NCBI GenBank assembly: GCA_021827205.1 | Contig: JAKAWV010000023.1 | Coordinates: forward strand, 1-51,064 | DNA: 51,064 nucleotides | DNA from: Pseudomonadota bacterium | GTDB taxonomy: Bacteria; Pseudomonadota; Gammaproteobacteria; Xanthomonadales; Rhodanobacteraceae | Direction: 5' to 3' | Shown here: positions 1,493 to 50,940 of the stretch, one piece after another | Numbering within the stretch: the first letter of the stretch is position 1 | Layout: the number at the start of each line of letters is the position of its first letter | Position numbers and translations under genes: made by a program | Notes under the pieces: model-generated | What the model was told of the DNA's origin: nothing | Seen by the model: only the letters and a program-made list of their open reading frames with translations | Database searches by the model: none

Positions 1493-2899
1493 TCACCGCA
1501 ACCAGGCCGTGTCCCTGGCGGCGTCTGGCAATACGGCCTGTGAAGCGTCGCGGGCGCGCTTCGCGCGACGCAAGATCAAAGCGGTTTCCGCGACGCGCCA
1601 TGCGTTGAATGTATCGAGTCCATTGGCCGCTGCGAGCTCCGGCACGATCCTGCAAAGCTGGCCGCGTTTGACCTGAACGAGACCGAGCGCGTCCAGTGCT
1701 TCCAGCGCGGAAGGAATCGCTTGCTCCAGCGCCACGGATTCGTGCTTGCGGCGATGTCTTGCACGCGCTTCACGGTACGCTGCAAGTACATCGCCCGCGA
1801 CCTGCGAAATCTCGGATGGCTCGCAGCCAGCATGTTGTGCGACCAGTGCCAGAGAGGGCACGTGGCAGACTGCCAAACGCCGCAGCAGATTGCGCAGGGC
1901 CATTTGAAGGCGTATCGACCCGCGAAGACGATTGCGCGGTGTCAGGGGGAGATAGTCGAAGCCTTGCCAAAATCCGAAGAACGGCTCGCGCTGTGCAGTC
2001 CTGACCGGATCGAGCAGGATGTCCAGCACAGAGCAGCCATGCATCCCAGCCAGATTCACGAGCTTCCCGAGCGAAATCTTCGCCGACGGTTGGTAGGACC
2101 ACAGCGATACGACCGCGCGCAGCGCAGGCGGCAAATCCGCTCGATCACCGTGCATGGCGCTGAAGGCTTCAAGAAATAGGTGGAAGCGATCCGCGGGCAA
2201 TTTCTCTTGCGCGGGATCCGAGCAGAGCTCGATCACCTGGTCGACTTGCGACTCGACCCAGCGATCCAAGGGAGTCAAGTGAGCGCTAACCGGCTCCGCG
2301 TGCCATCCGAGAGGTGTTCGGCAAAATCGACAGGCTCGCCGCGCCGGGTAACGCGTACGTGGCGGCTGCGCTTTGCCGCAGGACTGGCAGCGGTCCACGA
2401 GTTCACAGCCATGCAGCGAGCAGACCTTCTTGATCTCGATCGACCAAGCGAGTGGCTCCGCGGATCTATTCGGATCCCACTGCAAGTAACACACAGGGCA
2501 CCAGCGCCTGACGCGCGCCGCACTGGAGAAGGCGTGCACGCTCATGACCGCGGAGCAGGCCCATGGCGTGCCATGGCGAAGGAGATCGTTCTGGCCAGTC
2601 AGCCGCTCGGTGACCGCGACACGCGCTTCAAGCTCCGCCTCGTTGCCAAGGAACGGAGACGACGTGCCATGTGGTGAAAAGAGGATCTGCCCTGCTGCAA
2701 CGTTGCAGATCTCGAGCATCCTGTCATGCGTGATGCCCACGAGATTCGCGAGCCGAACCAGGTAGTGGTCGAGGCTCTCGACCTGTGCCGTCCCGATTCC
2801 GATCAGCGGCAGGGGCGGTAACGCCGTCCAGATACCGGTCTGACCAGTAGTTCGCAAAGACGTGGGCGGTGTTGTGGAATGTGGGTAGGCCACGGTCAT
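1493..2899 (-). CDS. tniQ: TniQ/TnsD-family transposon targeting protein (distal paralogue)
   Basis: A 468-residue TniQ-family protein. It has the N-terminal WTALPPLPL segment, an AQVESLDHYLVRLA helix, a CPVC pair near residue 135, and a second cysteine group CSLHGCELVDRCQSCG followed by CRFCRTPLGW, which together form the TniQ zinc fingers. In Tn7-like elements such proteins recognise the target DNA, or bind a Cascade complex, and recruit TnsC. The gene is a paralogue of the tniQ beside tnsC (8355-9614), sharing the same opening motif and cysteine spacing, but it is on the opposite strand and longer at its C-terminus. An element with two TniQ proteins can have two target-choice routes. Which one serves which route cannot be told here. 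Confidence 0.85.
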   Translation of the reverse strand: MTVAYPHSTTPPTSLRTTGQTGIWTALPPLPLIGIGTAQVESLDHYLVRLANLVGITHDRMLEICNVAAGQILFSPHGTSSPFLGNEAELEARVAVTERLTGQNDLLRHGTPWACSAVMSVHAFSSAARVRRWCPVCYLQWDPNRSAEPLAWSIEIKKVCSLHGCELVDRCQSCGKAQPPRTRYPARRACRFCRTPLGWHAEPVSAHLTPLDRWVESQVDQVIELCSDPAQEKLPADRFHLFLEAFSAMHGDRADLPPALRAVVSLWSYQPSAKISLGKLVNLAGMHGCSVLDILLDPVRTAQREPFFGFWQGFDYLPLTPRNRLRGSIRLQMALRNLLRRLAVCHVPSLALVAQHAGCEPSEISQVAGDVLAAYREARARHRRKHESVALEQAIPSALEALDALGLVQVKRGQLCRIVPELAAANGLDTFNAWRVAETALILRRAKRARDASQAVLPDAARDTAWLR

Positions 2900-7334: not shown

Positions 7335-8335
7335 TGGACCTGCTCGAGCATCCGCATTTTCTCGAGGCGCGCGGGCGGTTGCGCGCCGTGCTGGGCAATC
7401 CGACGGCGGGGCGCATGGTTTTCGTGGTGGGGCCAACCGGGGTCGGCAAGACGACCTTGAGACACGCCGTGTTCCGCGACCTGGTCGGTAGTCCACGGCA
7501 GTGGGGTCAGGGCCGTATTCCCCTGATCGAGGTGTACGCCGAGCTGCCGGCCAACGCCTACTTCACCTCCAAAGGGTTTGCCCAAACGCTGGTCGAGAGG
7601 GTCACGTTCCCACGGCTCGGCTGGATGAAAGGCTGCGCCTATCGTGAAGCGTGCGAAGCCTTCGAGCGCGAGGTGGATCAAGCACGCGCGCAGCTTGATG
7701 GGGTGGATTATTCGCGCGTCCCCGAAACACGGCTCTGGAGCATCTTTACCCAGCTGGCGCGCACGCGCGCCGTCAAAACGGTGTCCGTGGAACAGGCGGC
7801 GTCCCTGTGCGTGGTCCGCCGCAACAAGCAGCCTGCCGATCACATCCTGCACTTGATGGGGATTGCCGAACAGCTCGAGCTCAACTTCGTGCTGACGGGT
7901 GTGACTGCGATGTCCAAGCTGTGGATGACCCGCCCCGAGATTCGCCGTCGCGCCCACGTCGTCTTTATGCGTCCGTATTCGCCGCATCGGGAGGATGACC
8001 GCAAGCATTTCGTGGGTCTGATGCGTGCGATCGAGAACGCATATGCCGTCGAGCAGGGCGTGCTGCGCGGCATGATCGAGGATCTGTTCCTGGAAACCGC
8101 AGGGATTGTCGGCGAGCTGATCAGGCTCGCCGACGACAGCATGATGCGTGCCCGGCAGGCCGGGCGTGAAGCGATCAGCGAGGCGGACCTGCGCGCCTCC
8201 TTTCACAACGACGCCGCCGCGCAGCAGATGTGGGAGGACGTCCGTCTGTTCGAAGAACTGTGTGCACCCGGTGAGCCGGGTGTGCTGAAGAAGCAGGTGC
8301 TGCATGACTTGCCACCGAAGAAGCGACGGGCGTGA
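7334..8335 (+). CDS. tnsC: TnsC-family AAA+ transposition regulator
   Basis: A 333-residue AAA+ protein with a clear Walker A motif (VGPTGVGKTTLR, about residues 33-44). TnsC links the target-choosing protein (TniQ) to the TnsAB transposase and uses ATP to mark the target. The position of Walker B reads VEQAASLCVV where relatives have a DE pair (VDEAQHL-type), so the aspartate-glutamate is replaced by glutamate-glutamine. If the alignment by eye is right, ATP hydrolysis should be weakened. The start ATG overlaps the tnsAB stop (TGATG). The tniQ gene follows after 19 bp, so the three genes form one operon. Confidence 0.88.
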   Translation: MDLLEHPHFLEARGRLRAVLGNPTAGRMVFVVGPTGVGKTTLRHAVFRDLVGSPRQWGQGRIPLIEVYAELPANAYFTSKGFAQTLVERVTFPRLGWMKGCAYREACEAFEREVDQARAQLDGVDYSRVPETRLWSIFTQLARTRAVKTVSVEQAASLCVVRRNKQPADHILHLMGIAEQLELNFVLTGVTAMSKLWMTRPEIRRRAHVVFMRPYSPHREDDRKHFVGLMRAIENAYAVEQGVLRGMIEDLFLETAGIVGELIRLADDSMMRARQAGREAISEADLRASFHNDAAAQQMWEDVRLFEELCAPGEPGVLKKQVLHDLPPKKRRA

Positions 8336-8354
8336 CCGCTCTGGGACCGCGGGC

Positions 8355-9614
8355 ATGACGCAGGGACTCTGGACGGCCTTGCCAGCCCAGGCGCTGCGGC
8401 ATGTGGCGACGGCGCAGGTGGAGTCGTTCGAGCACTATGTGTTGCGGATGAGCGAGGTGACCGGGCTGCGGCGCGCGTCGCTGCTGAAGCCAACGCCGAT
8501 CGAAGCGGCCCACGCTGCGATTCCACAGCAAGGACTGTTGCAGCATGTGGAACGCGCCATCGGGGTCATGGAACACCTCACCGGTCAGACTGACCTGCGC
8601 TGCGGCACCCTGTGGGCCGTCTCCCGAGCCCTCAGCCTGCATGGGATGTGCGCGAGGAATCGGCCGCGCCGGTGGTGTCCGGTCTGCTACGCGGAGCAAG
8701 AGAGGGCCGAGGCCAGTGAATCGGTGGCCTGGTCGATCCGGCTGCTGCAGACCTGCCCCGCACACGGCTGCGCCTTGGTGGACCGCTGCCGGATCTGTGG
8801 GGCCACCCAGCTGGATTGCGATGCGTTGGTGCAGCGCCGCCAGTGTCGTCAGTGCGCGGCATCGCTGGGCTGGCGCGCCGGTTCGGCACACCTCGCGCAA
8901 AGCGCACTTGAACGCTGGATCGATGCGCAGATCCTGGCGATCGTCAGGTATGCCGCGGATCCGCAGAGTGCGCAGTTGCCACCCGATGCCTTCCACCAGA
9001 CGTGCCGGGCTCTGCGGTGCATTCCGGAGCGCTGGGCCCGCGTCCCGGCCTCGGTTCGATCACGTTTGCGAACGCACACGCGCCGCACGCTGCCGCCGCC
9101 GGTACTCGAGATGCTGCTGGAGGTTGCGGCGACCCAGCACTGCGGGGTGATGGCGCTGCTGACGGCGCCGGAGGCCATCGTCCAGACATCGTTGTGGCCC
9201 GATGCCACCGGCGGGCAGGACGCCGGGTTGCGCATGCCTGCAATCCCCCTGCTGCGCCTGCGGGCTTTGCTGGACCATCTTTTGGAAGAAGCACCGGCCG
9301 CCTATCTGCCGCCGCTGGCGTCCATCCTGTCGCGCCTCGGCATGGAACTGGCACAGGCTCGACACGCCGAACCGGAGCGTGTCGCGCGCTATCAGTGGCG
9401 CTGTGTCCGGCAGGGCGCGAGTGCGCGACTGCGTCGGCTGGACATTGCGGTGGCGCAGACCCTCCATTCATCCGCTCTGACCAGCCGCCTGGTGCCGACA
9501 CCGGCGCAGCTGGCGCAGTTGCGCCAGCGTCTTGCGCGGCATCTGGCGCTGGAGGACGCTGCAAAAGTGTGTACGACGGCAATGGAGCTCAGCCATCTGC
9601 CGGCACGCGGGTGA
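8355..9614 (+). CDS. tniQ: TniQ-family targeting protein (operon copy)
   Basis: A 419-residue TniQ protein. It shows GLWTALPAQAL, AQVESFEHYVLRM, the CPVCYAEQ pair, CPAHGCALVDRCRICG and CRQCAASLGW, which together make the family zinc fingers. It would bind TnsC and choose the target. ATG 8355 is preferred because the similarity to its paralogue at 1493-2899 begins directly after it; an in-frame ATG at 8304, inside tnsC, is possible. It is the last gene before the right end of the element, about 240 bp from the tip. The moderate length is closer to TniQ than to long TnsD proteins. Confidence 0.88.
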   Translation: MTQGLWTALPAQALRHVATAQVESFEHYVLRMSEVTGLRRASLLKPTPIEAAHAAIPQQGLLQHVERAIGVMEHLTGQTDLRCGTLWAVSRALSLHGMCARNRPRRWCPVCYAEQERAEASESVAWSIRLLQTCPAHGCALVDRCRICGATQLDCDALVQRRQCRQCAASLGWRAGSAHLAQSALERWIDAQILAIVRYAADPQSAQLPPDAFHQTCRALRCIPERWARVPASVRSRLRTHTRRTLPPPVLEMLLEVAATQHCGVMALLTAPEAIVQTSLWPDATGGQDAGLRMPAIPLLRLRALLDHLLEEAPAAYLPPLASILSRLGMELAQARHAEPERVARYQWRCVRQGASARLRRLDIAVAQTLHSSALTSRLVPTPAQLAQLRQRLARHLALEDAAKVCTTAMELSHLPARG

Positions 9615-38464: not shown

Positions 38465-39598
38465 TCAGGCAAAACGCTCGGATAGTCTGTAGATCAGATA
38501 CCCGCTCTCGCGGCGGGCACGTTCCGCGAAGTCCGCGAAGAACGTGCTGATGTTGCGGAATTCCACGATGAAGGCCTCGCGGTCGTTGTCCTCGATGATG
38601 CGTGCCAGCGTGCGGTGGTGGTCGAGGAACTTGAGCAGCAAGCTGCGCCGTTCGGCGTTGGCCAGCACGATGTCGGCATATAACTGCGGATCCTGCGCGA
38701 ACATGCGCGCCGTCATCATCAGTTCCATCCGGTAGACCGGGCTGGAGTAGTCGAGGATGTCATCCGGGTGCAGGTTGCATTGGCGCAGGAATGATCCATG
38801 CAGGAAGGTTGTGAAGTGGCGCAGACCCTGGATCAGATGCATCGCACGATCATGCTGATCGGCATCGACGATCTTGATGCGCATGCCCCAGAGTCGGCAC
38901 TGCTCGAGCAGCCATTGACTGCGCTGCGGATCGCGTCCCAGGCAGGCCAGCATCAGTTGCTTGGCCAGATTGGGGGCATCCGCTCCGTGCAACGGATGCA
39001 GACTGAGGACGGGACCTGGGTGGACCTGCTGCATCAGCTCAAGCAGACCGTTCTTGTTGGAGGTGAAATCGGCGAGTGCCGCAGTCGCGGGCAAATGCGG
39101 CGCCAGGCGGCCGATCACCTCGGCAGTGACATCGATCGGTACCGCGACGATGGCAAGATCGATGCCGGCAGCGAGTTGCGCGACGCGCGGCCAGTCGTCG
39201 CGATCGAGCACGCGTACGCGGTGTCCGCTGCGCTCGAGGAAGCGGCGGTACAACGAACCCATGCCGCCCGCGCCGCCGACCAGAAGCACATCGCGCGGCT
39301 GCGTCCCCGCGCGTGGAAATTCCCCATGCGACTGGCGATCGCGCGAACTACCCATGATCATGCGCAGGAAATCCTCGGCCCACTCCGCGTCCAGGCCACG
39401 TTCGATGGCCTGCTCGCGAAAGCGCGCGATTTTGTCGGCTTCGCGCGCAGCGTCGAAGATGGGCAGATGCTGCTCGATCTTGGTCGCGATGACGTCGCCG
39501 ACCACGCGATTGCGTCGCTCCAGCAAGTCGAGGATCTGGCTGTCGATGTCGTCGATGATCTCGCGCGGGGCTGCGAGCGGCTGTCGGTTGGACGGCAT
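38465..39598 (-). CDS. tyrA: Chorismate mutase / prephenate dehydrogenase (T-protein)
   Basis: A 377-residue fusion with the architecture and length of E. coli TyrA (373). The N-terminal AroQ chorismate mutase (about residues 10-95) has REIIDDIDSQILDLLERR, the lysine in ATKIEQ and AARE. The prephenate dehydrogenase part begins with the NAD site VLLVGGAGGMGSLY and includes FTSNKNGLLE and LHPLHG. The product is 4-hydroxyphenylpyruvate, one step from tyrosine. The start is MPSNRQPLAAP at 39598. It is divergent from the tyrosine-decarboxylase-like gene across a 277-bp region with an FNR-type site, so both may respond to oxygen. Confidence 0.92.
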   Translation of the reverse strand: MPSNRQPLAAPREIIDDIDSQILDLLERRNRVVGDVIATKIEQHLPIFDAAREADKIARFREQAIERGLDAEWAEDFLRMIMGSSRDRQSHGEFPRAGTQPRDVLLVGGAGGMGSLYRRFLERSGHRVRVLDRDDWPRVAQLAAGIDLAIVAVPIDVTAEVIGRLAPHLPATAALADFTSNKNGLLELMQQVHPGPVLSLHPLHGADAPNLAKQLMLACLGRDPQRSQWLLEQCRLWGMRIKIVDADQHDRAMHLIQGLRHFTTFLHGSFLRQCNLHPDDILDYSSPVYRMELMMTARMFAQDPQLYADIVLANAERRSLLLKFLDHHRTLARIIEDNDREAFIVEFRNISTFFADFAERARRESGYLIYRLSERFA

Positions 39599-39694
39599 GG
39601 CGGGTGCCTGCAGGTTGTGGTGATGGCCACGCCATGACGGCGCGCCGGGATCGATAGTAGGGCTTGCCGCATGCTTTCGCGTGTTGCGCCAAAA

Positions 39695-39708
39695 CTGATC
39701 GAGATCAA
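39695..39708. promoter_or_regulatory. FNR/Anr-type binding site between tyrA and the decarboxylase-ubiD-ubiUV genes
   Basis: CTGATCGAGATCAA matches the FNR consensus TTGAT-N4-ATCAA at nine of ten fixed positions. It is centred 104 bp before tyrA and 174 bp before the decarboxylase start. In E. coli and Pseudomonas the ubiUV genes are known to be under FNR/Anr, which supports a functional site. Centre-to-start distances allow class I or II activation of either side. A -10-like TACTAT for tyrA lies at 39659-39654. The rest of 39599-39875 shows no gene. Confidence 0.65.
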
Positions 39709-39875
39709 GGCGAATCTCTGGATTCGGCGCGATCCTCCTCGGGCGTCGCTGCGGCAAAGCGAATCTGATCCGGGTTTGGCGCCGGGTTTGCCGCGCGGGT
39801 TGCGTCGTCGGGCACCATCACCCAGGCACCTGTTCAAGCCATGCAGCAACCAATGAATCGATCACCCGAGTGCCC

Positions 39876-41822
39876 ATGACCGAGCCCAGCCTGTATCCGT
39901 GTTTTCTGGGGCCCTACGGGGAGAACGACGCGCTGCTGGAGCGACTGGTGGTGGAGTTCCTGCGCGACCATGTCTACTGGCGGCGCAATCTTTATCCGGA
40001 GGATCCTCCGGCCATCCCCACGCGCGCCGCGCAGCAGCCCGCCTTCCAGGAATTCGAGGCGCGTCTGCGCCGTGAATTGCACACGTTGTCCGCGTCGCTG
40101 AAACGTTCCGTGCCCTTTCACAGCCCGCGCTATCTCGGGCACATGGTCTCGGACCTTCTGCTTCCCGGTCTGGCCGCGCAGATTCTTGCCCTGCCGTACA
40201 ACCCCAACAACGTCAGCGACGAGGCCGCGCCCGTCACGATCGATCTGGAGATCAAGGTCGGGTTGCAACTGGCCAGGTTGCTCGGCTACGTCAGCGATCC
40301 GGAACAGGACGGCTGCGCATTCGGCCACCTGACTTCCGGCGGCACCCTGGCCAACTTCCAGGCCTTGCGCCTCGCGCTGGCCTTGAAGTGCTTTCCCGTG
40401 GCGCTGAGGGCCGCGGCACCGCCGGGGATGTCCATCCCGGAGGACGATATGCAAGCGTTCCGGCTGACACCTGCCCAAGCCATCGACCTGTTGGTCGGAT
40501 GGCAAGGCTGGCTGTCCGCGCTGGAACCCCAGGACCGTGTCTGCTGGCGCAAGAAACTCGAGGCCGAACGTATCGAACAACTGGGCGGCGTGCGTTTTTT
40601 TGCCACGCATCCAGAGCTCGCGCCGCCCGTCGTGCTGGCTCCAGTGACCGCCCATTATTCCTGGAGCAAGGGCATGAAGATGCTCGGCCTGGGGCGTGAG
40701 CAACTGGTGTTGATCCCGGAGCGCGGCATGCGCCTGGACATCACCGCGTTCGAACAGACGCTGCGCGACCTTGATGCCGCGGGCGCTTCTCCGCTGCTGG
40801 CGGTCGCGGTTTTCGGCACGACCGAGTTCGGCACCATCGATCCAGTGCATGAACTGGTGGCCTTGCGCGAGCGCCGCGCCGCGCAGGGCAAGGGTTTCGC
40901 CATCCATGTCGATGCCGCCTGGGGCGGCTATCTCGCCACACTGTTCCGGCAGGAAGACGGCACGCTGCGCAGTCTGCAAAGCATGCGCGCGGAATTCACG
41001 TCCTTCCCCAGCGCGAACACCCACGCCGCGATGGCTGCCCTCGGCCAGGCCGACTCCATCACGGTGGACCCGCACAAGCTCGGCTATCTGGCCTATGGCG
41101 CCGGCGCATTCGTGTGCCGAGACCACCGCGCCATGGAACTGCTCACTGAAACCGCCGATTACGTGTTCACGGGCGCGGCGCCATCCGGGTATTTCAACCG
41201 CTATCGCAAGCTGGGCCAGTACATCCCGGAGGGTTCCAAATCCGGCGCGGCCGCCGCGGCTGTCTACGTGACGCACCGGGTACTGCCGCTGGATCACACC
41301 CACTTCGGGCAACTGGTCCGGCAAACCATTCGCGCGACCGAGGCTTTCGTCGCGCGCGCGGAACAATTTGCCCGCGAGATGAGATCACGGCTCCGGGTGT
41401 GCGTTCCTTATCCGCCCGACAGCAATCTGGTGTGCATCGCCGCCAATCCGGCAGGCAATCTGGACGTCACCGTCGCCAATGCCTTCATGCGTCAAATTCA
41501 CGGCGCGATGAGCATGGACTCCCCGGTCCCCTTGGTCCCGCTGCAGAATCGCGAATTCTTCGGCTCGACCACCACCCTGCGCGAGGAAATACTCGGCACG
41601 CAGGACATGCATCGAATCCTGGATGAACTGGGTCTGGACACGTGCTCCATGCGTGCGGATGACCCGCGCTCGGATCGCTTGCTGATCCTGCGTCATACGT
41701 TGATGAATCCCTTCATCATCGATGACGAAAACGGCATCAGTTACATCGATCGCTACTTTGAATATCTGTCTCGTCGCGTGGCCTTGCTGCTGCCGGCGAA
41801 GCCATCATCGAGCACAACCTGA
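39876..41822 (+). CDS. Tyrosine-decarboxylase-like PLP-dependent decarboxylase
   Basis: A 648-residue group II PLP decarboxylase whose size and pattern match bacterial tyrosine decarboxylases (about 620). Visible are [48 protein letters not shown] and the PLP lysine in [14 protein letters not shown] (near residue 400), followed by GSKSGA. It would release CO2 from an aromatic amino acid, most likely tyrosine, giving tyramine and consuming a proton. ATG 39876 is taken as the start, with no clear ribosome site; GTG 39870 is possible. ubiD follows after 16 bp, so it heads an apparent operon with ubiD-ubiU-ubiV. Why it lies there is unclear. Confidence 0.8.
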
Positions 41823-41838
41823 GCGAGCAATCGGAATC

Positions 41839-43329
41839 ATGGCTTTTCACGATCTGCGCGCTTTTCTCGCCTACCTGGAGGCGCGCCATTCCCTGCTCAG
41901 GGTCGCGGAACCGGTTGATCCGGAGCTGGAGAGCACCGCGTTCTGTCTGCGTACGCTGCAGGCCGGTGGACCTGCGCTGTTGTTCGAACGTCCGCCAGGT
42001 TCAAAGCATCCCATGCTCGGCAATCTTTTCGGGCATCGCGCGCGGATCGAGGCTGCGCTGGCCGGGAGACCGCTGGCATCGCTGCGCGAACTGGGTCAAC
42101 TGCTGGCCTCCATCAAGGAGCCGCGCTGGCCCGGATCCGTGCGCGAAGCGCTGCAGATGTGGCCTGAATTCGGCCAACTTGCGAATGTCACGCCGAGGGT
42201 CGTGCACGAGGCTCCGTTTCTCGATCAGATCATCGAGGGGTCCGACGTCGACCTGGCCCGACTGCCCATCCAGCGTTGCTGGCCAGAAGACGTCGGCCCG
42301 CTGATTACCTTCGGGCTGGTGGTCACCCGCGGCACACGGCAGAAACGCCAGAACGTGGCGATTTACCGGCAACAGGTGATTGCTCCGAATCGGGTGATCA
42401 TGCGCTGGCTGCCGCATCGTGGTGGCGCGCTGGATTTCGCCGACTGGCAAACGGCTTGTCCGGACCAGCCGTTCCCGGTCCTGGTCGCCATCGGCGCCGA
42501 TCCCGCCACGCTGCTGGCGGCCGTGGCGCCGGTCCCCGACACCTTGTCCGAGTACGAGTTCGCCGGCCTGCTGCGTGGCGAACGCACCCGTGTCTGGCAC
42601 AGTTCACGTACCGACCTGGATGCACCCGCAGGCGCGGAGATCGTGCTCGAGGGCTTGATCAACCCCGGTGACACCGCCATGGAAGGGCCGTTTGGTGATC
42701 ACACGGGCTACTACAACAGCCAGGCCCGGTTCCCCGTGCTCACCGTGCAGCGCATGCTGCTGCGAACCGGCGCGATCTATCACGGCAGTTACATGGGGCG
42801 CGCACCGCATGACGAACCCTCGGTTCTGGCGCTGGCGCTGAACGACGTGTTCGTGCCGATCCTGCAGAAGGTATTTCCCGAGATCGTCGATTTTTACCTG
42901 CCCCCGGAAGCCTGCTCCTACCGGATCGCCATCGTCAGCATCCGCAAACAGTATCCGGGCCATGCACGCCGCGTGATGATGGGCATCTGGTCATACCTGC
43001 GCCAGTTCACCTACACGAAGTTCGTTATCGTTGTCGACGCGGATATCGATGTACGGCAGTGGAGCGAGGTGATCTGGGCTGTTTCGACACGGGTCGATCC
43101 CGCGCGCGACAGCCTGCTCATCGAGCGCACCCCCATCGATTATCTGGACTTCGCCAGTCCAGTGGCGGGTCTCGGTTCCAAACTGGGGCTGGATGCCACC
43201 AGCAAGTGGGCCGGCGAGACCGAGCGGACCTGGGGACGCCCGATCACCGCCGATCCCGACATCGAGCGCCGTGTCGATGCCTTGTGGTCACGCGTATTCG
43301 CCAACGTCCAGGAGGCAGGCCGCCCATGA
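41839..43329 (+). CDS. ubiD: UbiD-family decarboxylase (4-hydroxy-3-polyprenylbenzoate decarboxylase)
   Basis: A 496-residue UbiD, the same length as the E. coli enzyme (497). It decarboxylates the prenylated 4-hydroxybenzoate ring in ubiquinone synthesis using prenylated FMN made by UbiX. Family marks are [34 protein letters not shown], the metal/cofactor region [12 protein letters not shown] and [13 protein letters not shown]. It starts at ATG 41839, 16 bp after the decarboxylase. A UbiX gene is not in the window. Unlike the usual placement, it is grouped with the O2-independent hydroxylation genes. Confidence 0.93.
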
Positions 43330-43444: not shown

Positions 43445-44440
43445 ATGGATCTGATCTGCCCGGCGGGCAATCTGCCCGCGCTCAAGACCGCTGTTGATCA
43501 CGGTGCCAGCGCGGTTTATGTCGGCTTTCGCGACCAGACCAATGCGCGCGCGTTCGCGGGTCTCAATTTCAGCGAAGACGATCTGCGCCAAGGCATCGGC
43601 TATGCCCACGCGCGCCAGCGCAAGGTCTACATCGCACTGAATACCTATCCCAGCCCGGCACATATCGGCGCCTGGCAAAAAGCAGTGGATCGGGCGGCCG
43701 ACCTCGATGTCGATGCCATCATCTGCGCCGACCTCGGCGTACTCGACTACGCGACCCGGCAGTACCCCAACCTGCCGCGCCATCTTTCGGTGCAGGCTTC
43801 CGCGACCACCCACGCCGCCCTGCGCTACTACCGCGAACGCTTCGGCATCGCGCGTGCAGTCATGCCCAGGGTGCTGTCGCTGCAACAGATCGAGCGACTC
43901 TGCGAGCGCCAGGTCGTACCCATTGAAGTATTCGCCTTCGGCAGCCTGTGCATCATGGTGGAAGGACGCTGCCAACTGTCCAGCTACGTGACCGGCGTTT
44001 CACCCAATCGCCATGGCGTCTGTTCACCGGCCAAATTCGTGCGTTGGGATGAAGAGCCCGGCGGCGTGCGCAGCGTTCACCTGAACGATGTCCTGATCGA
44101 CCGCTATCAGGCACACGAACCCGCCGGTTACCCGACGGTATGCAAGGGCCGATACGAGGTCGGCGGCGAGATTTTTCATGCCCTGGAAGAACCCACCAGC
44201 CTGAACACGCTGCAACTTTTGCCGATGCTGAAGGCCGCAGGAGTCGCGGCACTCAAGATCGAGGGACGGCAGCGCGGACTGGCCTATGTGGGCACGGTGA
44301 CACGGGTCTGGCGACAGGCGATCGACCAGCTCGAATCGCACCCCGGAGCGGCCACCAATCCGGCATGGCAGCGCGAACTCGACGCTCACGCCGAAGGTCA
44401 CCAGACCACGCTGGGCCCCTATCACCGCTCCTGGCATTGA
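43445..44440 (+). CDS. ubiU: O2-independent ubiquinone hydroxylation protein UbiU (U32 family)
   Basis: A 331-residue U32-family protein. It starts MDLICPAGNLPALKTAVDHG and has the family stretch around GSLCIMVEGRC. Cysteines 169, 176, 193 and 233 line up almost residue for residue with the four [4Fe-4S] ligands of E. coli UbiU (169, 176, 193, 232). With UbiV it forms a complex that hydroxylates the ubiquinone ring without oxygen, using prephenate as hydroxyl donor according to published work. A gap of 115 bp separates it from ubiD, and ubiV follows after 11 bp. Confidence 0.95.
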   Translation: MDLICPAGNLPALKTAVDHGASAVYVGFRDQTNARAFAGLNFSEDDLRQGIGYAHARQRKVYIALNTYPSPAHIGAWQKAVDRAADLDVDAIICADLGVLDYATRQYPNLPRHLSVQASATTHAALRYYRERFGIARAVMPRVLSLQQIERLCERQVVPIEVFAFGSLCIMVEGRCQLSSYVTGVSPNRHGVCSPAKFVRWDEEPGGVRSVHLNDVLIDRYQAHEPAGYPTVCKGRYEVGGEIFHALEEPTSLNTLQLLPMLKAAGVAALKIEGRQRGLAYVGTVTRVWRQAIDQLESHPGAATNPAWQRELDAHAEGHQTTLGPYHRSWH

Positions 44441-44451
44441 GGCACGCACGC

Positions 44452-45357
44452 ATGCAACTCACGCTCGGACCCCTGCAATATTTCTGGCGCCGCGATGACG
44501 TGTTCAAGTTCTATCGCGCGGCTGCGCAATGGCCACTGGACACGATTTATCTCGGTGAAACCGTCTGCAGCAAGCGCCGCGAGCTCGGCACGCGCGACTG
44601 GATCGCGTTGGCGAACGAACTCGCCGAAAGCGGGCGCGAGATCGTTCTGTCCTCGCTGGCGCTGCTGGAAGCCGAGTCGGACTTGTCTGCGCTCACGCGT
44701 CTGGTTGAAAACGGGCACCTCCGCGTCGAAGCCAACGACATGTCCGCGGTACAGCTCCTGCGCGACCGCAAACTGCCGTTCATTGGTGGTCCAAGCCTGA
44801 ACGTCTACAACCATGTCGCTTTGCGCCTGTTGTGCGCAGACGGCATGCAGCGATTGGTTCTGGGAATCGAGCTGGGGCGGGAATTGCTGCAGGAGTTCAA
44901 GGACAGCGGCGAACCGCTCCCGGAATTCGAGACGATCGCTTGGGGGCGCCTGCCACTGGCCTACTCGGCGCGCTGCTATACGGCGCGGGCTCTGGATCTG
45001 GCCAAGGACGACTGCGGCTTTCGCTGCATCGACTATCCAGATGGCCTGCCATTGAAAACGCGGGAGAGCCGCCCTTTTCTGACCATCAATGGCATTCAGA
45101 TCCAGAGCAACGAACACTGCGATCTGGCGCCGGACATCGCGGAACTGCATGCGGCAGGCGTCCAGTTGCTGCGTCTGTATCCGCAGACGAATGACATGGA
45201 GTCTGTGGTCGCGCGCTTTCGCGAGGCCATCGATTCGGGTCGCCCGCCGCAGCGCATCGGCAAGGAGAGCGGCTATTGGCACGGACAGGCCGGCATGGAG
45301 CGGCTACCCGGCAGTGGCGCAGCAGATCCCGTTCAGGCGGTCATTTCGCCACAATGA
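44452..45357 (+). CDS. ubiV: O2-independent ubiquinone hydroxylation protein UbiV (U32 family)
   Basis: A 301-residue partner of UbiU. It begins MQLTLGPLQYFWRRDDV and contains DTIYLGETVCSKRREL. The cluster cysteines are C39, C175, C188 and C192, with the same spacing as E. coli UbiV (39, 180, 193, 197). The start ATG 44452 lies 11 bp after the ubiU stop. Its 3' end overlaps the 3' end of the converging chorismate mutase-UbiT gene by 25 bp. Confidence 0.95.
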   Translation: MQLTLGPLQYFWRRDDVFKFYRAAAQWPLDTIYLGETVCSKRRELGTRDWIALANELAESGREIVLSSLALLEAESDLSALTRLVENGHLRVEANDMSAVQLLRDRKLPFIGGPSLNVYNHVALRLLCADGMQRLVLGIELGRELLQEFKDSGEPLPEFETIAWGRLPLAYSARCYTARALDLAKDDCGFRCIDYPDGLPLKTRESRPFLTINGIQIQSNEHCDLAPDIAELHAAGVQLLRLYPQTNDMESVVARFREAIDSGRPPQRIGKESGYWHGQAGMERLPGSGAADPVQAVISPQ

Positions 45358-46277
45358 GCCGTTCGCGCCAGTCGAGCGAACCTGGCGCCTCGATTCAGTA
45401 ACACCCGAATATCCAGTGGAATCGTCTCCCATGGAAGTTGATCGAGCAGATTGCGCACCTGCAGTCCCAGCTCCGTGTCGCCCACCAACTGCAGGCGCCG
45501 CTGGAAAAACAGCGTATCGGCATCTTCCAGACGGCTGGCCAGAAGCAGGAGATCAGTCGCGCTGCCACGCACGGTCGATTCCGGGTTTTCACCAGGAACC
45601 TGCACATGAAGATCGCGCGTGCCGATCTCGACCACCCATCTCAGCTTGAGATCGGTAACCTCGACACCGAGCCGGCGGCCCCGCAAATCATCGAACGCGC
45701 CATTGGCAAGTGGACCGGCCATGACGCGCAGGCTCATGCTGCGCAGAAGGGCGCAGAGCAGCGGCGGCGGCAACATCCAGCGCAATGGGCTGCTCAACCG
45801 CGACGGGGGCGGCAACAGCCGCAGAAGTTTTTGCGCGTAAGGGAATCTCGACATCACGGAACCCCCCGAATCATGCTGCGATGATGAATCACCCGTGGTT
45901 TCTTCCGCGGTCGACGACAGGCCTTGCAATGCGCAGGCATCACCGATGAGCAGCTCCGTCAATTGTCGCGTCACGCTTGCGGAGAGAGCAAGCCTCGCGC
46001 CAAAAGCCTGCGCCCGATCATGTACTTGGTGCTCGCGTTCACGATCCCGTCCAGGCAACCCAGCCCGGTGCTTGACCGACATGGCACGGCGCACCAACCG
46101 GCGCCGACCCGCCAACAAGACAAGAAACATCTCATCGACCCGGTCGATCAGGGATCGTACCGCGCGCAGTTCAACCGAGCCACCTTCCACCGGGCGCAGC
46201 GAGTGTGCATTGCCAGCGAAGCCAGGAACCGGCGCATGCTGCTCGAATCGGGCTTGCGAAAGCTCAACGTTGAGCAT
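45333..46277 (-). CDS. ubiT: Chorismate mutase-UbiT (SCP2) fusion
   Basis: A 314-residue fusion. Residues 35-120 are an AroQ chorismate mutase that aligns without gaps to the E. coli domain. R41, R58, K69, D78, R81, E82 and Q118 correspond to its active-site R11, R28, K39, D48, R51, E52 and Q88 (S84 is alanine). After a serine/threonine-rich linker, residues 142-314 are UbiT, an SCP2 lipid-binding protein of the O2-independent ubiquinone pathway, with LEVTDLKLRW-like strands and DTLFFQRRLQLVGDTELGLQVRNLLD. ATG 46277 has AGGG 6-7 bp upstream. An internal in-frame ATG at 45854 follows a GGGGGG and could also produce UbiT alone. E. coli UbiT (174 residues) has no such N-terminal domain. The mutase product, prephenate, is the reported hydroxyl donor of UbiUV. 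Confidence 0.85.
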   Translation of the reverse strand: MLNVELSQARFEQHAPVPGFAGNAHSLRPVEGGSVELRAVRSLIDRVDEMFLVLLAGRRRLVRRAMSVKHRAGLPGRDREREHQVHDRAQAFGARLALSASVTRQLTELLIGDACALQGLSSTAEETTGDSSSQHDSGGSVMSRFPYAQKLLRLLPPPSRLSSPLRWMLPPPLLCALLRSMSLRVMAGPLANGAFDDLRGRRLGVEVTDLKLRWVVEIGTRDLHVQVPGENPESTVRGSATDLLLLASRLEDADTLFFQRRLQLVGDTELGLQVRNLLDQLPWETIPLDIRVLLNRGARFARLARTAHCGEMTA

Positions 46278-46388: not shown

Positions 46389-46745
46389 TCATATGACTCT
46401 CCGCAGTGCGAAATAAATCAGGCCCCTCAACAACCGGTACACAAACCACAGATAGACAGGTACAAACACCAGCACCGCGAACCCGAACGGTACGCAAAAG
46501 CCCGCGAGGATGGACCACATCATGAACAGAAACGCGGTGCGCAAACGCCATTGACGATGGCTTTGCAAGAAAGGGTCCGTGCAGGTCTCCGCTTCCTTGC
46601 GCGTGTCGGCGTACACCTGATACCAGATGGTGAAGATGAAAAAAACCAGGCCCAAAGCAAGCGCCACATAAGCGTTGCGCGAGCCGCGCAGTTGCCTGTC
46701 ACTTGATTCCACGGCGACGCTCGATGCAGCGACAGAGGCGATCAT
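46389..46745 (-). CDS. Small membrane protein at the end of the bc1 operon
   Basis: A 118-residue protein with three hydrophobic segments, at about residues 24-42 (AYVALALGLVFFIFTIWYQ), 67-92 and 93-112. The last two resemble DUF4870-like short membrane proteins (FLFMMWSILAGFCVPFGF followed by VYLWFVYRLLRGL). Its ATG overlaps the petC stop (ATGA), so it is translationally coupled to cytochrome c1 and probably assists the bc1 complex or is a small extra subunit. No family is claimed with confidence. ATG 46763 would add six residues. Confidence 0.65.
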   Translation of the reverse strand: MIASVAASSVAVESSDRQLRGSRNAYVALALGLVFFIFTIWYQVYADTRKEAETCTDPFLQSHRQWRLRTAFLFMMWSILAGFCVPFGFAVLVFVPVYLWFVYRLLRGLIYFALRRVI

Positions 46746-47554
46746 CGCCCGATCCTCCACCATCGCTCATCGCTGGTGATCACCCGCCGCCAATAAAGTT
46801 TGTAGATGAAATAGGTCAATATCGAGAGCAACAGGAACAGGCCGATAATCCACGGTCCAAGCCGGGCCCTTTCCGCCTGATGCGGATGCGCGACTGCGTA
46901 CAGAAACGTGACAATGTCTCTCGCGGTCCGGTCAAACTGCGCCTTCGACATCGTGCCTTGCGTCAGGGGCAACACACCGACCGCGATTTTGGCCGGGCTG
47001 CCGAAGCGCAGGCCCTCTACCATGACCGGCTTCTGCAATCCCTGCATGCCGGCGAAAACATCAGGCATGGCGACATTGTAAAACGCGACATTGTTGACGC
47101 CCGCCGGACGTGCCGGATCGACATAAAATGAAGTCAGGTACGTATATAGCCAGGCGGGCGAGCGGCGCAAAGCGATGTCGGTCAGATCCGGCGGCGGCAT
47201 GCTCACGAATTTCGTCATCAGTTCAGGCGACATGTTCGTGGTGATGGTGTCGTGGTAGTGGCGCCCGTCGGTACCGATGTATTTCAGGAACTGCGATTTG
47301 CTCAATCCAAGGACCGGTGGCAGCTCACTGTAACGCGCCCCCTGAATTCCGTGGCATGCGGTACACATATGCAGTGCATACAGGGCGCCATTTTGCAGCG
47401 CCGCCTTGTCATGCAGATTGATCTTGATGTGCCGCAGCGGTGGTTGCGTGGTCGTTACCGATGCCATCGCCGCGTTGCCGAACCATGCCAGAAGCAAAGC
47501 GGATAGAAGCACCACAAGCAATCCGGATTTCCGTGATGGCGCGCGTATTGTCAT
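46742..47554 (-). CDS. petC: Cytochrome c1 of the bc1 complex
   Basis: A 270-residue cytochrome c1. It has a signal peptide (about residues 10-30, LLVVLLSALLLAWFGNAAMA), the haem site CTACH (near residue 65), the axial methionine in NVAMPDVF (near 160) and a C-terminal membrane anchor (WIIGLFLLLSILTYFIYKLYW). It takes electrons from the Rieske centre and passes them to soluble cytochromes. It follows petB by 89 bp. Confidence 0.92.
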   Translation of the reverse strand: MTIRAPSRKSGLLVVLLSALLLAWFGNAAMASVTTTQPPLRHIKINLHDKAALQNGALYALHMCTACHGIQGARYSELPPVLGLSKSQFLKYIGTDGRHYHDTITTNMSPELMTKFVSMPPPDLTDIALRRSPAWLYTYLTSFYVDPARPAGVNNVAFYNVAMPDVFAGMQGLQKPVMVEGLRFGSPAKIAVGVLPLTQGTMSKAQFDRTARDIVTFLYAVAHPHQAERARLGPWIIGLFLLLSILTYFIYKLYWRRVITSDERWWRIGR

Positions 47555-47643
47555 TGCTCGGTCCTGCCCAAAAAGAGTTCAGTTGTCTTCTGCAAACCGA
47601 TCGGGCGATACCCGCCCGATATCACGTGGACGCAGACTTGTCG

Positions 47644-49077
47644 TTAATGGAAAATGCCACCCGCAGTAAGACGCTCGGGCAGATGCTGAGTGTCCTGGGT
47701 GAGCGCCGGGAAAAGAATCGCCAATCCGAACAACAGCAACAGATAGGTTGCCGGAATCCAGTCCGTCAGCAGCATCAAATTCCAGCCATGCGCATGGATA
47801 GAGTACATCCAAACGTCGATCAGTAAAACTACGGCTTCAGTGACGATTAACCACGCCACGCTGGCACCCAGCGAACGCCGCTTGTTGAAGAACGGCAGAA
47901 CCAGGAACGTGGCGTAGAAAACCTCGGTGACATGAAGTCCGAAAACCATATTGTGTTCCGTGGCAAAGCCATGCGCGATATAACCCAGCCACAAAAATGA
48001 TGCGGGCATCATTAAAATATTCAGTTTGTACAGTACCGAGCGATAACGAATCGAGCGAATCGGATTGCGGTCGAGCAACGGCAGACAAGCCAATAGCGCA
48101 AACGAGCCGGCAAATGCCATGATTCCGTACAGCTTGTCCGGCACGCCGCGCAGCATTGCGTAAAATGGCAGAAAAAACCACAGCGGATGAATATCACTCG
48201 GCGTGTGCAAAATATTTGCGGGGGTATAGTTCAACTTGTCCAGCAGAAAGCCCCAGCCATCGGGTTTGTAGAATACAAACCAGAAAAATATCACGAAAAA
48301 CACGCTCACTCCGAACAGATCCTTCACCGTGTAATATGGATGAAAAGGAATCCCGTCGCGCGGCCATGATGATTTGCTGGTATTGGCATGAATCTCCACT
48401 CCATCCGGATTGTTCGAACCGACCTGGTGCAGCGCGATAAGATGGACCAGCACCAGCGCCAGCAACAGGACCGGCATCAGGAACACATGGAATACAAAGA
48501 ACCGGTTCAAGGTCGGCAGTCCGATCACAAACGACCCACGCAGCCACTGTGCTATCGGCTTGCCAATGCCCGGGATCGCAGTCACGAAATTGGTGACAAC
48601 CGCCGAGCCCCAGTAGGACATTTGCCCCCACGGCAACAGGTAGCCGAGGAATGCCTCGGCGGCCAATGCCAGGTAAATGAATATGCCAATCAGCCACAGC
48701 AATTCTCGCGGCTTTTTGTAGGAGCCATACATGATGCCGCGGTACATGTGCAGGTACACGAGCACGAAGAATGCCGAAGCCCCGACGATGTGCATGTCGC
48801 GGATCAGCCAGCCCCAATGCGAGTCTCTCTGGATCGTGCGTACTACCGACCAATAAGCGAGATGCGGATTTGGCTGATAATGAATGGCTAGAAACAAGCC
48901 AGTCGCAAGCTGCATAACCAGAACCAGCATGGCCAGCGAACCGAAGAAATACCACAGATTGAAATTCTTCGGCGCCGGATACTCAGTCAGTTGTGTACGC
49001 CAAAGCGATGAAATGGGCAGCCTTTGGTCGAACCAGCCAAACACGCGCCTTGCTCTTGATTGGTCTATGTTATTCAT
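47644..49077 (-). CDS. petB: Cytochrome b of the bc1 complex with an altered Qo motif
   Basis: A 477-residue cytochrome b with eight to nine transmembrane helices. The four haem-binding histidines are in RDMHIVGAS, VYLHMYRG, FVFHVFLMP and LVHLIALH. The quinol-oxidation (Qo) motif, nearly always PEWY in ubiquinol-oxidising complexes, is PLWF here (residues 298-301, 48175-48186), in SDIHPLWFFLPFYAML. The glutamate that accepts a proton is thus a leucine. The reading is clean and surrounded by intact family sequence, so error is unlikely. The enzyme may use another proton route or another quinone. Confidence 0.93.
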   Translation of the reverse strand: MNNIDQSRARRVFGWFDQRLPISSLWRTQLTEYPAPKNFNLWYFFGSLAMLVLVMQLATGLFLAIHYQPNPHLAYWSVVRTIQRDSHWGWLIRDMHIVGASAFFVLVYLHMYRGIMYGSYKKPRELLWLIGIFIYLALAAEAFLGYLLPWGQMSYWGSAVVTNFVTAIPGIGKPIAQWLRGSFVIGLPTLNRFFVFHVFLMPVLLLALVLVHLIALHQVGSNNPDGVEIHANTSKSSWPRDGIPFHPYYTVKDLFGVSVFFVIFFWFVFYKPDGWGFLLDKLNYTPANILHTPSDIHPLWFFLPFYAMLRGVPDKLYGIMAFAGSFALLACLPLLDRNPIRSIRYRSVLYKLNILMMPASFLWLGYIAHGFATEHNMVFGLHVTEVFYATFLVLPFFNKRRSLGASVAWLIVTEAVVLLIDVWMYSIHAHGWNLMLLTDWIPATYLLLLFGLAILFPALTQDTQHLPERLTAGGIFH

Positions 49078-49131
49078 GGAGTACGAAATCCTTCACGGCG
49101 TGAACGCCACGTGGGTTGTGCATTGTTACGT

Positions 49132-49980
49132 TCAGCGTTTTGGTTTGGATTTGCTGGTCTCTGTTTTCGGCTGGGCGGCGCTTTGCGGCGCAGCGACGGC
49201 AGACGATTTTTTTGCTTGCTGGCGCAGGTCAACTGCCCGAACATATTCGTGATAGTTCTTCGGACCGATGCCGAGGGTTGAATCTGGATTCAGTTGCTGT
49301 AGATATACGGCGACTGCCGTCATCTGCTGCTTTGTCATGGTTCTGGCAATACTGGTCATAACCTGGCCGGGGCTATTGCTGCGCGCGCCACTAGCAAATT
49401 GGTCAAGCTGCGTCAATAGGTAAACCGCGTGTTGCAACGCCAATGCCGGGATCGCCATGGGGCCGTTGCCGTCTGCGCCAAGCCCGTGGCAAGCCGCGCA
49501 GGCAGGAATATTGTCGCTCGCCAGTCCCTGCGTATAGATTTTCTGTCCTTCTTTCAACTGGGCAGCGTTCGCGCGCGCGCCTGGCACCGCCGCCACTCCT
49601 GCTGTCAGCAATGGCTGTCGCGAGAAGTATGCGGCGATTTCTTTCAGGTTTTGATTATCAGCAGAGGCTGGGATGGTCATCGCCATGCCGCTCATGATGG
49701 TCGATTTGCGCGCGCCGTCGCGGAAATCCTCCAGTTGCTTCAATAGATAGTTGTAGCGCTGTGCGGCCAGGTTGGGGTATTCAGTTGCGGCACTGGTTCC
49801 GGTAATTCCATGGCACGCGGCACACACGGCAATCAGTGCGCCGCCTTGTTTGGCTGCCGCCGCCCCCAATGGTATCCCGTGATAATCAACTTTCGCGTGT
49901 GCATTGGTAGCGCCACAAGCGACAATGAAAATCATCGCGAGCGCGGCGGCTGGCTGGGGTACATGTTTGAAAATTTTCAT
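49132..49980 (-). CDS. Dihaem cytochrome c4-like protein
   Basis: A 282-residue exported protein with a signal peptide (residues 1-29, ending THAHA-like NAHA) and two haem sites, CAACHGITG (near residue 52) and CAACHGLGADG (near 165), each with the downstream methionine regions of the c4 family. The C-terminal tail is lysine/alanine-rich. c4 cytochromes shuttle electrons from bc1 to oxidases or other acceptors. Its gene lies between petA and petB, which is unusual. The start at ATG 49980 (MKIFKHVP) follows the Rieske stop by 27 bp, so it is in the same operon. Confidence 0.85.
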   Translation of the reverse strand: MKIFKHVPQPAAALAMIFIVACGATNAHAKVDYHGIPLGAAAAKQGGALIAVCAACHGITGTSAATEYPNLAAQRYNYLLKQLEDFRDGARKSTIMSGMAMTIPASADNQNLKEIAAYFSRQPLLTAGVAAVPGARANAAQLKEGQKIYTQGLASDNIPACAACHGLGADGNGPMAIPALALQHAVYLLTQLDQFASGARSNSPGQVMTSIARTMTKQQMTAVAVYLQQLNPDSTLGIGPKNYHEYVRAVDLRQQAKKSSAVAAPQSAAQPKTETSKSKPKR

Positions 49981-50007
49981 CTTGACATCCATTCGCAAAA
50001 TGCTGGC

Positions 50008-50694
50008 TTACCAAATATCGGGAGTCCAATTCTTGTCGGTACCAGACTTGTTCACCTCGCCTATGGTGACGACCGTGGCGGTTTTCCAGTAATACGGTGG
50101 AATCGGAATGTTCAATGGCGCTGGCGAGCCTTCGAGTACACGCGCGGAAAAATCGTACATTGATCCATGGCATGCACAATGAAATCCGCCTGGCCACCAT
50201 GGTGTTACCGTATGTGGTGCCGGCCGATAGTCGGGAATGCATTGCATATGCGTGCATAGCGCCACGGCTACGAACATGTCTGGGCGCAGGGCACGATAGT
50301 TGCCATTCACATATGCTTGCGCGGGCTGCTGGTTCTGTTTGCTGTGCGGATCCTTGAGTCGCCGCAACAACGACGGTTCGGACAAGGTCTTCAGCATCCA
50401 GTCTTCGCGTTTCAATATCCACACCGGCTTCTTCTTCCATTCCACGAGAAGCAATTGTCCGGGCTCCATCCGACTGACGTCGACATCAATCGGTGCGCCG
50501 AGAGCCTCAACAGCTTTCCCGGGATTCATGTTGTCGATCAGCACGTCCGCAAACAGACCCACAGCCCCTGCGCCCAGCACTCCGGCAGCGGCAATGAGAA
50601 ATTGTCTTCGATCCGGGCGTATTTCGCTCTCTGGACGGATCGAATCCATGATCATCTCGCCAGCAGTTGTTTTCTGAGTTGGGCCATTCGCCAT
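50008..50694 (-). CDS. petA: Rieske iron-sulfur subunit of the bc1 complex
   Basis: A 228-residue Rieske protein. It has a twin-arginine signal (PDRRQFLIAAAGVLGAG) leading into a membrane anchor, and the [2Fe-2S] motifs CTHMQC and CACHGSMYD. Export in the folded state by the Tat system fits with tatC immediately upstream. The start is MANGPTQ at 50694; ATGs further upstream run into the promoter with its FNR site. It is the first gene of the petA-c4-petB-petC operon. The CTHMQC box differs from the common CTHLGC form. Confidence 0.93.
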   Translation of the reverse strand: MANGPTQKTTAGEMIMDSIRPESEIRPDRRQFLIAAAGVLGAGAVGLFADVLIDNMNPGKAVEALGAPIDVDVSRMEPGQLLLVEWKKKPVWILKREDWMLKTLSEPSLLRRLKDPHSKQNQQPAQAYVNGNYRALRPDMFVAVALCTHMQCIPDYRPAPHTVTPWWPGGFHCACHGSMYDFSARVLEGSPAPLNIPIPPYYWKTATVVTIGEVNKSGTDKNWTPDIW

Positions 50695-50735
50695 AATCGT
50701 AACCTTGCCGTATAGTTGCCGAGCCTGATCCGTTA

Positions 50736-50744
50736 AAAATAATA
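50736..50744 (-). promoter_or_regulatory. Predicted -10 element of the petA promoter
   Basis: The minus strand reads TATTATTTT; TATTAT matches five of six positions of TATAAT and TATTTT four of six. The spacing from the FNR box centre (50770.5) fits an activator-dependent promoter, and no good -35 element is needed in that arrangement. The predicted transcript would start near 50729-50732. Confidence 0.45.
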
Positions 50745-50763
50745 CCCTACAATTCATGTTGAC

Positions 50764-50777
50764 TTGATTCAGATCAA
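50764..50777. promoter_or_regulatory. Perfect FNR/Anr site upstream of petA
   Basis: TTGATTCAGATCAA is an exact match to TTGAT-N4-ATCAA. On the minus strand a TATTTT/TATTAT element lies 20-26 bp downstream (50744-50736). If it is the -10 box, the FNR site sits close to -41.5, the classical class II activation position. The start of petA is 70 bp from the site. This predicts that the bc1 operon is switched on without oxygen. Confidence 0.75.
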
Positions 50778-50940
50778 ATTCCGCGTGGATTGCGTCATCT
50801 TGACACACACTGTCGACCTAGAAGTGCTGGATGGCGGCTTGGCTGAATATGCAGTCCGCGCGCGCCGGGTTCTTCGCTGGGCCCCAGAGCGGCCGTGGAA
50901 CGCACGGCGGTAGTTCTGCCAGGCGACAGTACGCTCGCCC

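Follow-up and report, generated by a model that had tools for sequence, protein, structure and literature searches.

Why would the lipid carrier of O2-independent ubiquinone synthesis carry a chorismate mutase (CM)? The question is raised by a single reading frame in a stretch of 51,064 nucleotides from a Rhodanobacteraceae bacterium (contig JAKAWV010000023.1), referred to here as the window. Prephenate has been described as the oxygen donor of O2-independent ubiquinone hydroxylation (PMC11574389, citing 10.1073/pnas.2321242121). The related U32 protein TrhP is likewise described as needing prephenate, as shown by deletion of pheA and tyrA, a defect that was made good either by prephenate supplied from outside or by nothing more than CM activity (PMC6599085). 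UbiT has been proposed to bind lipid intermediates and to pass them to UbiUV (PMC10470549, PMC6747719).

The frame runs uninterrupted for 314 codons from position 46277 to 45333 on the minus strand. Residues 40–118 match the Pfam family CM_2 (43.6 bits against a cut-off of 27, E 3.5e-11), which makes this part a member of PF01817. Residues 192–279 match SCP2 (57.7 bits against 21.3), and residues 169–284 match the NCBIfam model of UbiT, NF047962 (116.8 bits against 46.9), as expected for a UbiT protein. The SCP2 fold is supported by the Pfam match and by the top fold match (6h6p) of a structural model, and ubiU and ubiV adjoin the gene, which is the gene neighborhood of UbiT. The locus thus encodes one two-domain protein composed of an AroQ-type CM and UbiT, and the fusion in one frame proposed by a sequence-only reading is confirmed by CM_2, NF047962, and the open frame. 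That reading would have fallen had profile searches found no mutase similarity or had a sequencing error split the gene. The CM_2 score speaks against the first, while the second is ruled out by the lack of a frame break and by an identical in-frame architecture in 57 other genomes sampled from the order. No prephenate dehydratase (PDT) or prephenate dehydrogenase domain was found by Pfam within the 314 amino acids, and the protein is therefore not a bifunctional CM of the PheA or TyrA type. All NCBIfam CM models score below their cut-offs for the fusion (the best, TIGR01791, 36.3 against 66.95 bits), placing the fused CM outside any named CM subfamily.

Table. Features of the fusion gene and of its neighbors in the window.
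Feature	Coordinates	Strand	Remarks
CM-UbiT fusion gene	45333..46277	-	314 aa; ATG start 46277; alternative in-frame GTG 46190
AroQ-type CM domain, residues 35-118	45924..46175	-	Pfam CM_2, 1ecm alignment, model, fold match, conservation
Catalytic positions of CM domain: R41 R58 K69 D78 R81 E82 Q118		-	by 1ecm alignment
Linker, residues 119-150	45828..45923	-	largely disordered in model; omega 0.79; Met enrichment
UbiT part (SCP2 lipid carrier), residues 151-314	45336..45827	-	NF047962; UbiJ-SCP2 fold match
ubiV	44452..45357	+	NF047965 348 bits; start chosen; convergent with fusion gene (25-base overlap of the 3' ends)
ubiU	43445..44440	+	NF047963 524 bits
ubiD-type decarboxylase	41722..43329	+	TIGR00148 474 bits, over cut-off; NF008175 712, under 788
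Second CM of the window: CM + prephenate dehydrogenase (TyrA type)	38465..39757	-	Pfam CM_2, PDH_N, PDH_C

Is the N-terminal domain a working enzyme? We take the active site of the E. coli CM (EcCM) to consist of R11, R28, K39, D48, R51, E52, and Q88, with S84 presumably a secondary site that does not define the family. Residues 37–118 of the fusion align without gaps with residues 7–88 of EcCM (1ecm), and the seven main positions fall on R41, R58, K69, D78, R81, E82, and Q118, as the sequence-only reading had claimed. The catalytic residues R11, R28, K39, R51, E52, and Q88 of EcCM are all matched, and S84 is replaced by A114. In an AlphaFold monomer model of the whole protein (mean pLDDT 80, pTM 0.58, 69 sequences), the CM domain forms three helices (35–72, 79–95, and 100–117, block-mean pLDDT 77–97), and these are followed by a linker with pLDDT <50 at residues 124–142 and then by the SCP2 fold. 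The top Foldseek match of the model is UbiJ-SCP2 (6h6p, E 5e-6, 111 columns, probability 1.00), and the E. coli mutase occurs at rank 30 (1ecm_B, E 4.9e-3, rmsd 0.9 Å, 83 columns, probability 1.00). Model and match agree on the three-helix AroQ fold.

The active site is conserved among relatives in two overlapping sets, one of named loci and one drawn from the order. All 76 named fusions keep R41, R58, K69, R81, and E82; position 78 is Asp in 71 of them and Asn in 5, and position 118 is Gln in 75 and His in 1; the A114 site is Ala in 70, Gly in 5, and Ser in 1. In the order set, R41, R58, K69, D78, R81, and E82 are found in all 57 well-aligned rows and Q118 in 56, a count that leaves out the misaligned row of one genome (G366), whose CM looks intact when read separately. 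Position 78 is Asn in G011, the nearest relative among the sampled genomes. D48 of EcCM is described as salt-bridged to R11', and PchB, which has Ala at this site, as retaining weak mutase activity (PMC12329711); Asn78 need not, therefore, abolish activity. The site taken by Val55 in the lyase PchB is mostly Glu in AroQ mutases, although the mutase MtCM also has a Val, Val73 (PMC12329711). By the +3 offset given in the same paper, Val55 corresponds to position 52 of EcCM, and the fusions have Glu rather than Val here (E82 in the window, Glu in 76 of 76 named fusions). Finally, we compared 22 non-overlapping close pairs of sequences. Median omega was 0.26 for the CM and 0.23 for UbiT (22 pairs each); the linker, for which 20 pairs gave a value, had a median of 0.79. 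The pooled values were 0.35 for the CM, 0.30 for UbiT, and 0.86 for the linker. Purifying selection acts on the fused CM domain. Judged by its residues and fold, this domain is very probably a functional chorismate mutase.

We asked how widely the fusion occurs by searching 398 genomes of the order, 97 of which had UbiT over the cut-off. A CM upstream of UbiT was detected (E <1e-3) with a profile made from the relatives' PheA/TyrA-type domains, the fusions being left out. A CM lies in frame in 58 of the 97 UbiT genes. These are concentrated in four families (31 of 35 genes in f1, 22 of 22 in f2, 1 of 1 in f3, and 4 of 4 in f4; 58 of 62 together), and four other families have none (0 of 14 in f8, 0 of 11 in f9, 0 of 8 in f10, and 0 of 2 in f12; 0 of 35 together). 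In the unfused members of the order, no CM was found elsewhere in the fetched loci of about 3 to 8 kb. The named set consists of the best 80 of 374 relatives as ranked by likeness to the window protein, a choice biased toward kin of that protein, and 76 of these 80 are fusions; it overlaps the order set, contains near-copies, and counts one genome at two loci (L181 and L182). A chance gene fusion, one of the alternatives first raised for this gene, is rejected by these two overlapping counts (58 of 97 and 76 of 80).

Named carriers include Rhodanobacter, Dyella, Frateuria, Dokdonella, Mizugakiibacter, and Lysobacter, and further Thermomonas, Arenimonas, Stenotrophomonas, Pseudoxanthomonas, and a Xanthomonas. 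Exact sequence matches identify four genomes of the order sample as Mizugakiibacter sp. SZUA-23 (G010, the same genus as the window), M. sediminis (G013), Thermomonas hydrothermalis (G254), and Lysobacter sp. GX 14042 (G338). The gene arrangement is also nearly constant: ubiUV lie downstream of and opposite to the fusion gene in all 24 loci of the order set in which ubiU was seen, and in 32 of 33 such named fused loci, the exception (L215) having ubiUV upstream on the same strand. Four f1 genomes lack a CM on UbiT (G331, G019, G306, and G207), with ubiUV nearby in G306 and G019, as do four named loci from metagenome-assembled genomes (MAGs; L217, L226, L227, and L250). In G207, UbiT looks decayed by eye, and a stub of the mutase end is present. 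Another genome (G026, L130 4651-4875) has, also by eye, a remnant of a fusion-type mutase with Arg at the catalytic Lys; no UbiT, UbiU, or UbiV match was found within the 9 kb around it.

The history of the fusion was approached through trees of its two halves. A UbiT tree, made by a quick method and with 47 of its 110 inner branches open, needs seven changes of state, of which the starred branches force only one. The UbiT of the four unfused MAG loci is closer to the window UbiT than that of most fused genes, and beyond its own genus the window UbiT is nearest in the tree to three of them (L226, L217, and L250), which counts against a simple history. In a CM tree (99 columns, 74 rows), all fused CMs and an orphan remnant lie on one side (support 87, not starred). 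We prefer a single origin of the fusion with later losses; several independent gains are possible.

Outside the order, we examined 115 ubiT loci from 114 genomes (101 of the class and 14 of other classes; 888,056 bases, some loci ending at contig ends). These loci are a subset of the UbiT genes detected: two UbiT searches had given 94 and 192 genomes, and of the genomes unique to the second, 24 were fetched. No CM was found within the UbiT frame at any of the 115 loci, and the fusion is thus not required by the pathway in general. The initial claim that UbiT homologues lack a CM domain accordingly holds for these 115 loci and fails in f1–f4, in which 58 of 62 are fused.

At six of the 115 loci, the ubiTUV cluster does include an unfused CM gene, in every case over the Pfam cut-off. 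Four of these genes are divergent from ubiT and adjoin it (L278, L332, L290, and L316), one lies directly downstream of ubiT on the same strand (L148), and the sixth adjoins ubiV instead (L153). If CM genes are roughly assumed to occur at a density of three per 3 Mb, chance would place about 0.9 of them in the 888,056 bases and about 0.1 no farther than 500 bases from ubiT; five adjoining ones were observed. The five share the R, R, K, R, E residues with the fused domain, but all lack Gln at the Q118 site, and Asp at the D78 site is seen in L316 alone. They cluster together in a small tree (support 85) and hence seem not to derive from fusions that split. A mutase may tentatively be said to have become associated with UbiT at least twice, as a fusion of the Xanthomonadales type and as a neighboring gene in other gammaproteobacterial families. 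The pathway may benefit in general from a dedicated supply of prephenate. The CM-like ORF that adjoins ubiV (L153 1082-1582, G446) encodes 166 amino acids, is convergent with ubiV, scores 45.5 bits against CM_2, and possibly contains the start of a second CM close to its end. The gene order is ubiT-CM-fabA-fabB at L148 (1582-3324, G557) and CM-ubiT-fabA-fabB in Dyella solisilvae (L177 5967-7690), where fabA and fabB stand for genes that look fabA- and fabB-like from their sequence.

A further link appears in genomes with few mutases. CM_2 domains were counted in 60 fused and 7 unfused genomes of the order, 67 in all. The fused CM is the sole CM_2 match in five of the fused genomes (G013, G141, G229, G254, and G338), all of which are listed as 99–100% complete and keep the active site. 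None of the five gave a PDT match; these genomes are drafts, and absence of CM or PDT rests on one profile search per family. Among comparison genomes, two of three had a PDT match at >210 bits. The third (G183) had its match spread over three frames and was left uncounted, since an identical MAG locus comes from a tig-type assembly, in which frame errors are possible. Prephenate dehydrogenase was marginal in four of the five (22.5–26.7 bits, cut-off 26.5) and without a match in G254. Two of these matches (L343 and L345), along with a second weak one in the window genome (L346), resemble 3-hydroxyisobutyrate-type dehydrogenases, judging from their motifs. The five draft genomes seem to have lost the Phe branch and yet to retain the fused mutase. 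CM and UbiTUV are therefore linked genomically in two ways, by the genomes with a sole CM and by the CM genes in ubiTUV clusters elsewhere.

What, then, would the mutase do on UbiT? We propose that the N-terminal AroQ domain would convert chorismate to prephenate, while the C-terminal UbiT would hold polyprenyl intermediates for the O2-independent hydroxylase UbiU-UbiV. The fused mutase would then supply prephenate to UbiUV where the lipid substrate sits, rather than serve Phe and Tyr synthesis. As prephenate is the reported oxygen donor, supply of UbiUV is its most likely use, and making prephenate for UbiUV is probably the best explanation of CM-UbiT. This role had first been offered as a possibility, and it gains support from the catalytic residues kept in 76 of 76 named fusions, from the five sole-CM draft genomes without detected PDT, and from the separate CM genes beside ubiT in other families. 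Dedication of the fused mutase to UbiUV also appears probable from these sequence comparisons, although the presence of two other CM genes in the window genome counts against it. Those two CMs sit with prephenate consumers, so that a mutase without such a partner would spare prephenate for UbiUV. AroQ-alpha enzymes are described as intertwined dimers (PMC12329711, PMC10520331), and the mutase half may therefore also make UbiT a dimer. We suggest more tentatively that CM-UbiT could be a platform that joins the lipid, in the SCP2 pocket, with prephenate made on the spot and handed to UbiUV.

Two other roles for the domain are weaker rivals to prephenate supply. In the first, the AroQ domain would be a sensor that binds chorismate or prephenate and tunes UbiT. 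The CM-like domain of some DAHP synthases regulates its partner in this way, and ligand binding, like catalysis, would be expected to conserve the pocket. The DAHP synthase of B. subtilis is described as bearing an AroQ-class domain at its N-terminus (PMC5526877), as CM-UbiT does, although partner and pathway differ. The complete retention of the R, R, K, R, E core among the named fusions argues against a pure sensor, as does its retention in the five separate CMs that adjoin ubiT, for which a free-standing sensor is less natural. We consider this role unlikely; sensing alongside catalysis is possible.

The second weaker rival is that a spare housekeeping mutase became fused, with a role in amino acid synthesis or merely in dimerization of UbiT. 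AroQ domains do dimerize, and the window genome could spare a mutase, its two further CM genes having a PDT match in frame in one case and prephenate dehydrogenase in the other. A plain dimerization module would not retain an active site, however, and a surplus enzyme is hard to reconcile with the five fused draft genomes that keep the fused CM with no PDT and no other CM detected, or with the separate CM genes that adjoin ubiT in other families. A spare mutase is thus quite improbable, and prephenate supply remains the preferred reading.

The linker bears on whether the two halves are made as one protein at all. An in-frame ATG noted in the sequence-only reading at 45854 is indeed present (45852-45854), within the linker and near the expected start of an unfused UbiT. 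Such codons are strongly over-represented immediately ahead of the UbiT core (96, compared with 10 and 0 in the two other frames; 54 of 58 genes), as would be expected if UbiT were made only from this ATG and the CM part were an unrelated product or none. A Shine-Dalgarno-like stretch precedes the internal ATG in only 8 of 70 genes (6 of the 76 were dropped for want of a core match), compared with about 5% at random codons, and in 10 of 58 genes when a wider window is used. In comparison, such a stretch occurs at 29 of 57 ubiU starts and 19 of 52 ubiV starts. Moreover, all 58 CMs in the fetched ubiT loci of the order share the UbiT frame across a fast-changing linker. Translation of UbiT from the internal ATG alone, which would have undone the original claim, is therefore very unlikely; an additional short UbiT product alongside the fusion is possible. 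The order-wide fused set has a recurring short motif resembling M-(I/M)-x-P-x-M in the otherwise fast-changing linker, for which a relic of a start codon, a second start, or a peptide motif are candidates.

The least credible reading is that the domain makes another product, such as 4-hydroxybenzoate in place of a missing UbiC. A profile search of the window genome gave no UbiC match (PF04345), and its chorismatase match is a partial one that covers 88 of the 311 positions in the model and scores 49.7 bits, the cut-off being 325; no full-length match was found. UbiC is, however, unmatched in 57 of 61 genomes (that of the window and 60 relatives) whether fused or not, so that its absence does not follow the fusion and is rejected as the reason for it, and the residues of the fused domain are those of mutases, with Glu and not the PchB-type Val.

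The surroundings of the gene in the window include several other elements. Between the TyrA-type gene and ubiD, 39870-41822 (+) encodes a PLP protein resembling tyrosine decarboxylase (299 bits against a cut-off of 905). Head to tail with the fusion gene, 46389-50808 (-) encodes a Rieske protein, cytochrome c, cytochrome b, cytochrome c1, and a small membrane protein, and the Rieske-cytochrome genes and the fusion gene possibly form one operon. The full Rieske-cytochrome set upstream of the fusion recurs only in G011 (L137) among 82 loci. The sole perfect FNR-type box of the window, TTGATTCAGATCAA (50764-50777), falls within the opening codons of the listed Rieske frame; with up to two mismatches allowed, the window has 17 matches to such a box against 7.2 expected. 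Two TniQ-like proteins (1493-2899, minus strand, and 8304-9614, plus strand) suggest that the left part of the window contains genes related to transposons.

CM-UbiT differs from known systems in the partner of each half. UbiT of E. coli (YhbT) is described as a protein of 174 amino acids that is mostly SCP2 domain (PMC6747719). The window protein shares with it an SCP2 lipid carrier that is encoded with ubiU and ubiV and scores over the NF047962 cut-off, but only in the window protein does an AroQ mutase precede UbiT. With the AroQ-alpha CMs of PheA and TyrA, the window CM has in common the three-helix fold and the catalytic residues; it differs in its Ala at the S84 site and in being joined to a lipid carrier rather than to a prephenate-consuming dehydratase or dehydrogenase. 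A UbiT-UbiU fusion is described for two genomes of Zymomonas mobilis (PMC6747719). There, too, UbiT is fused to a protein of the same pathway, although the partner is a subunit of the hydroxylase in Z. mobilis and the maker of a presumed co-substrate in the window. Exported fusions of CM with cyclohexadienyl dehydratase, described as AroQ-gamma-like and bifunctional in nine species (PMC10520331), are similarly bifunctional CM fusions. They are joined to the next enzyme of the Phe pathway, whereas the mutase of CM-UbiT, a fusion common in two families, aligns with AroQ-alpha and has a ubiquinone protein as its partner. A literature search over titles and the beginnings of abstracts, mainly of open-licence papers, found, among the papers listed, no publication describing a CM-UbiT fusion, and none in the open-licence literature treating both UbiT and chorismate mutase; in two quinone surveys (ISME J 2024 and mSystems 2026), neither "fusion" nor "fused" was found as a term.

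The use of prephenate as an oxygen donor is unexpected chemistry, and nature provides independent evidence for it in a CM-UbiT fusion that several families have retained. The fusion gives a handle on how UbiUV obtains prephenate against competition from PheA and TyrA, and it bears both on roles of UbiT beyond the holding of lipids and on partner mutases for other U32 hydroxylases. Organisms in which the fused mutase is seemingly the only CM would permit a clean test.
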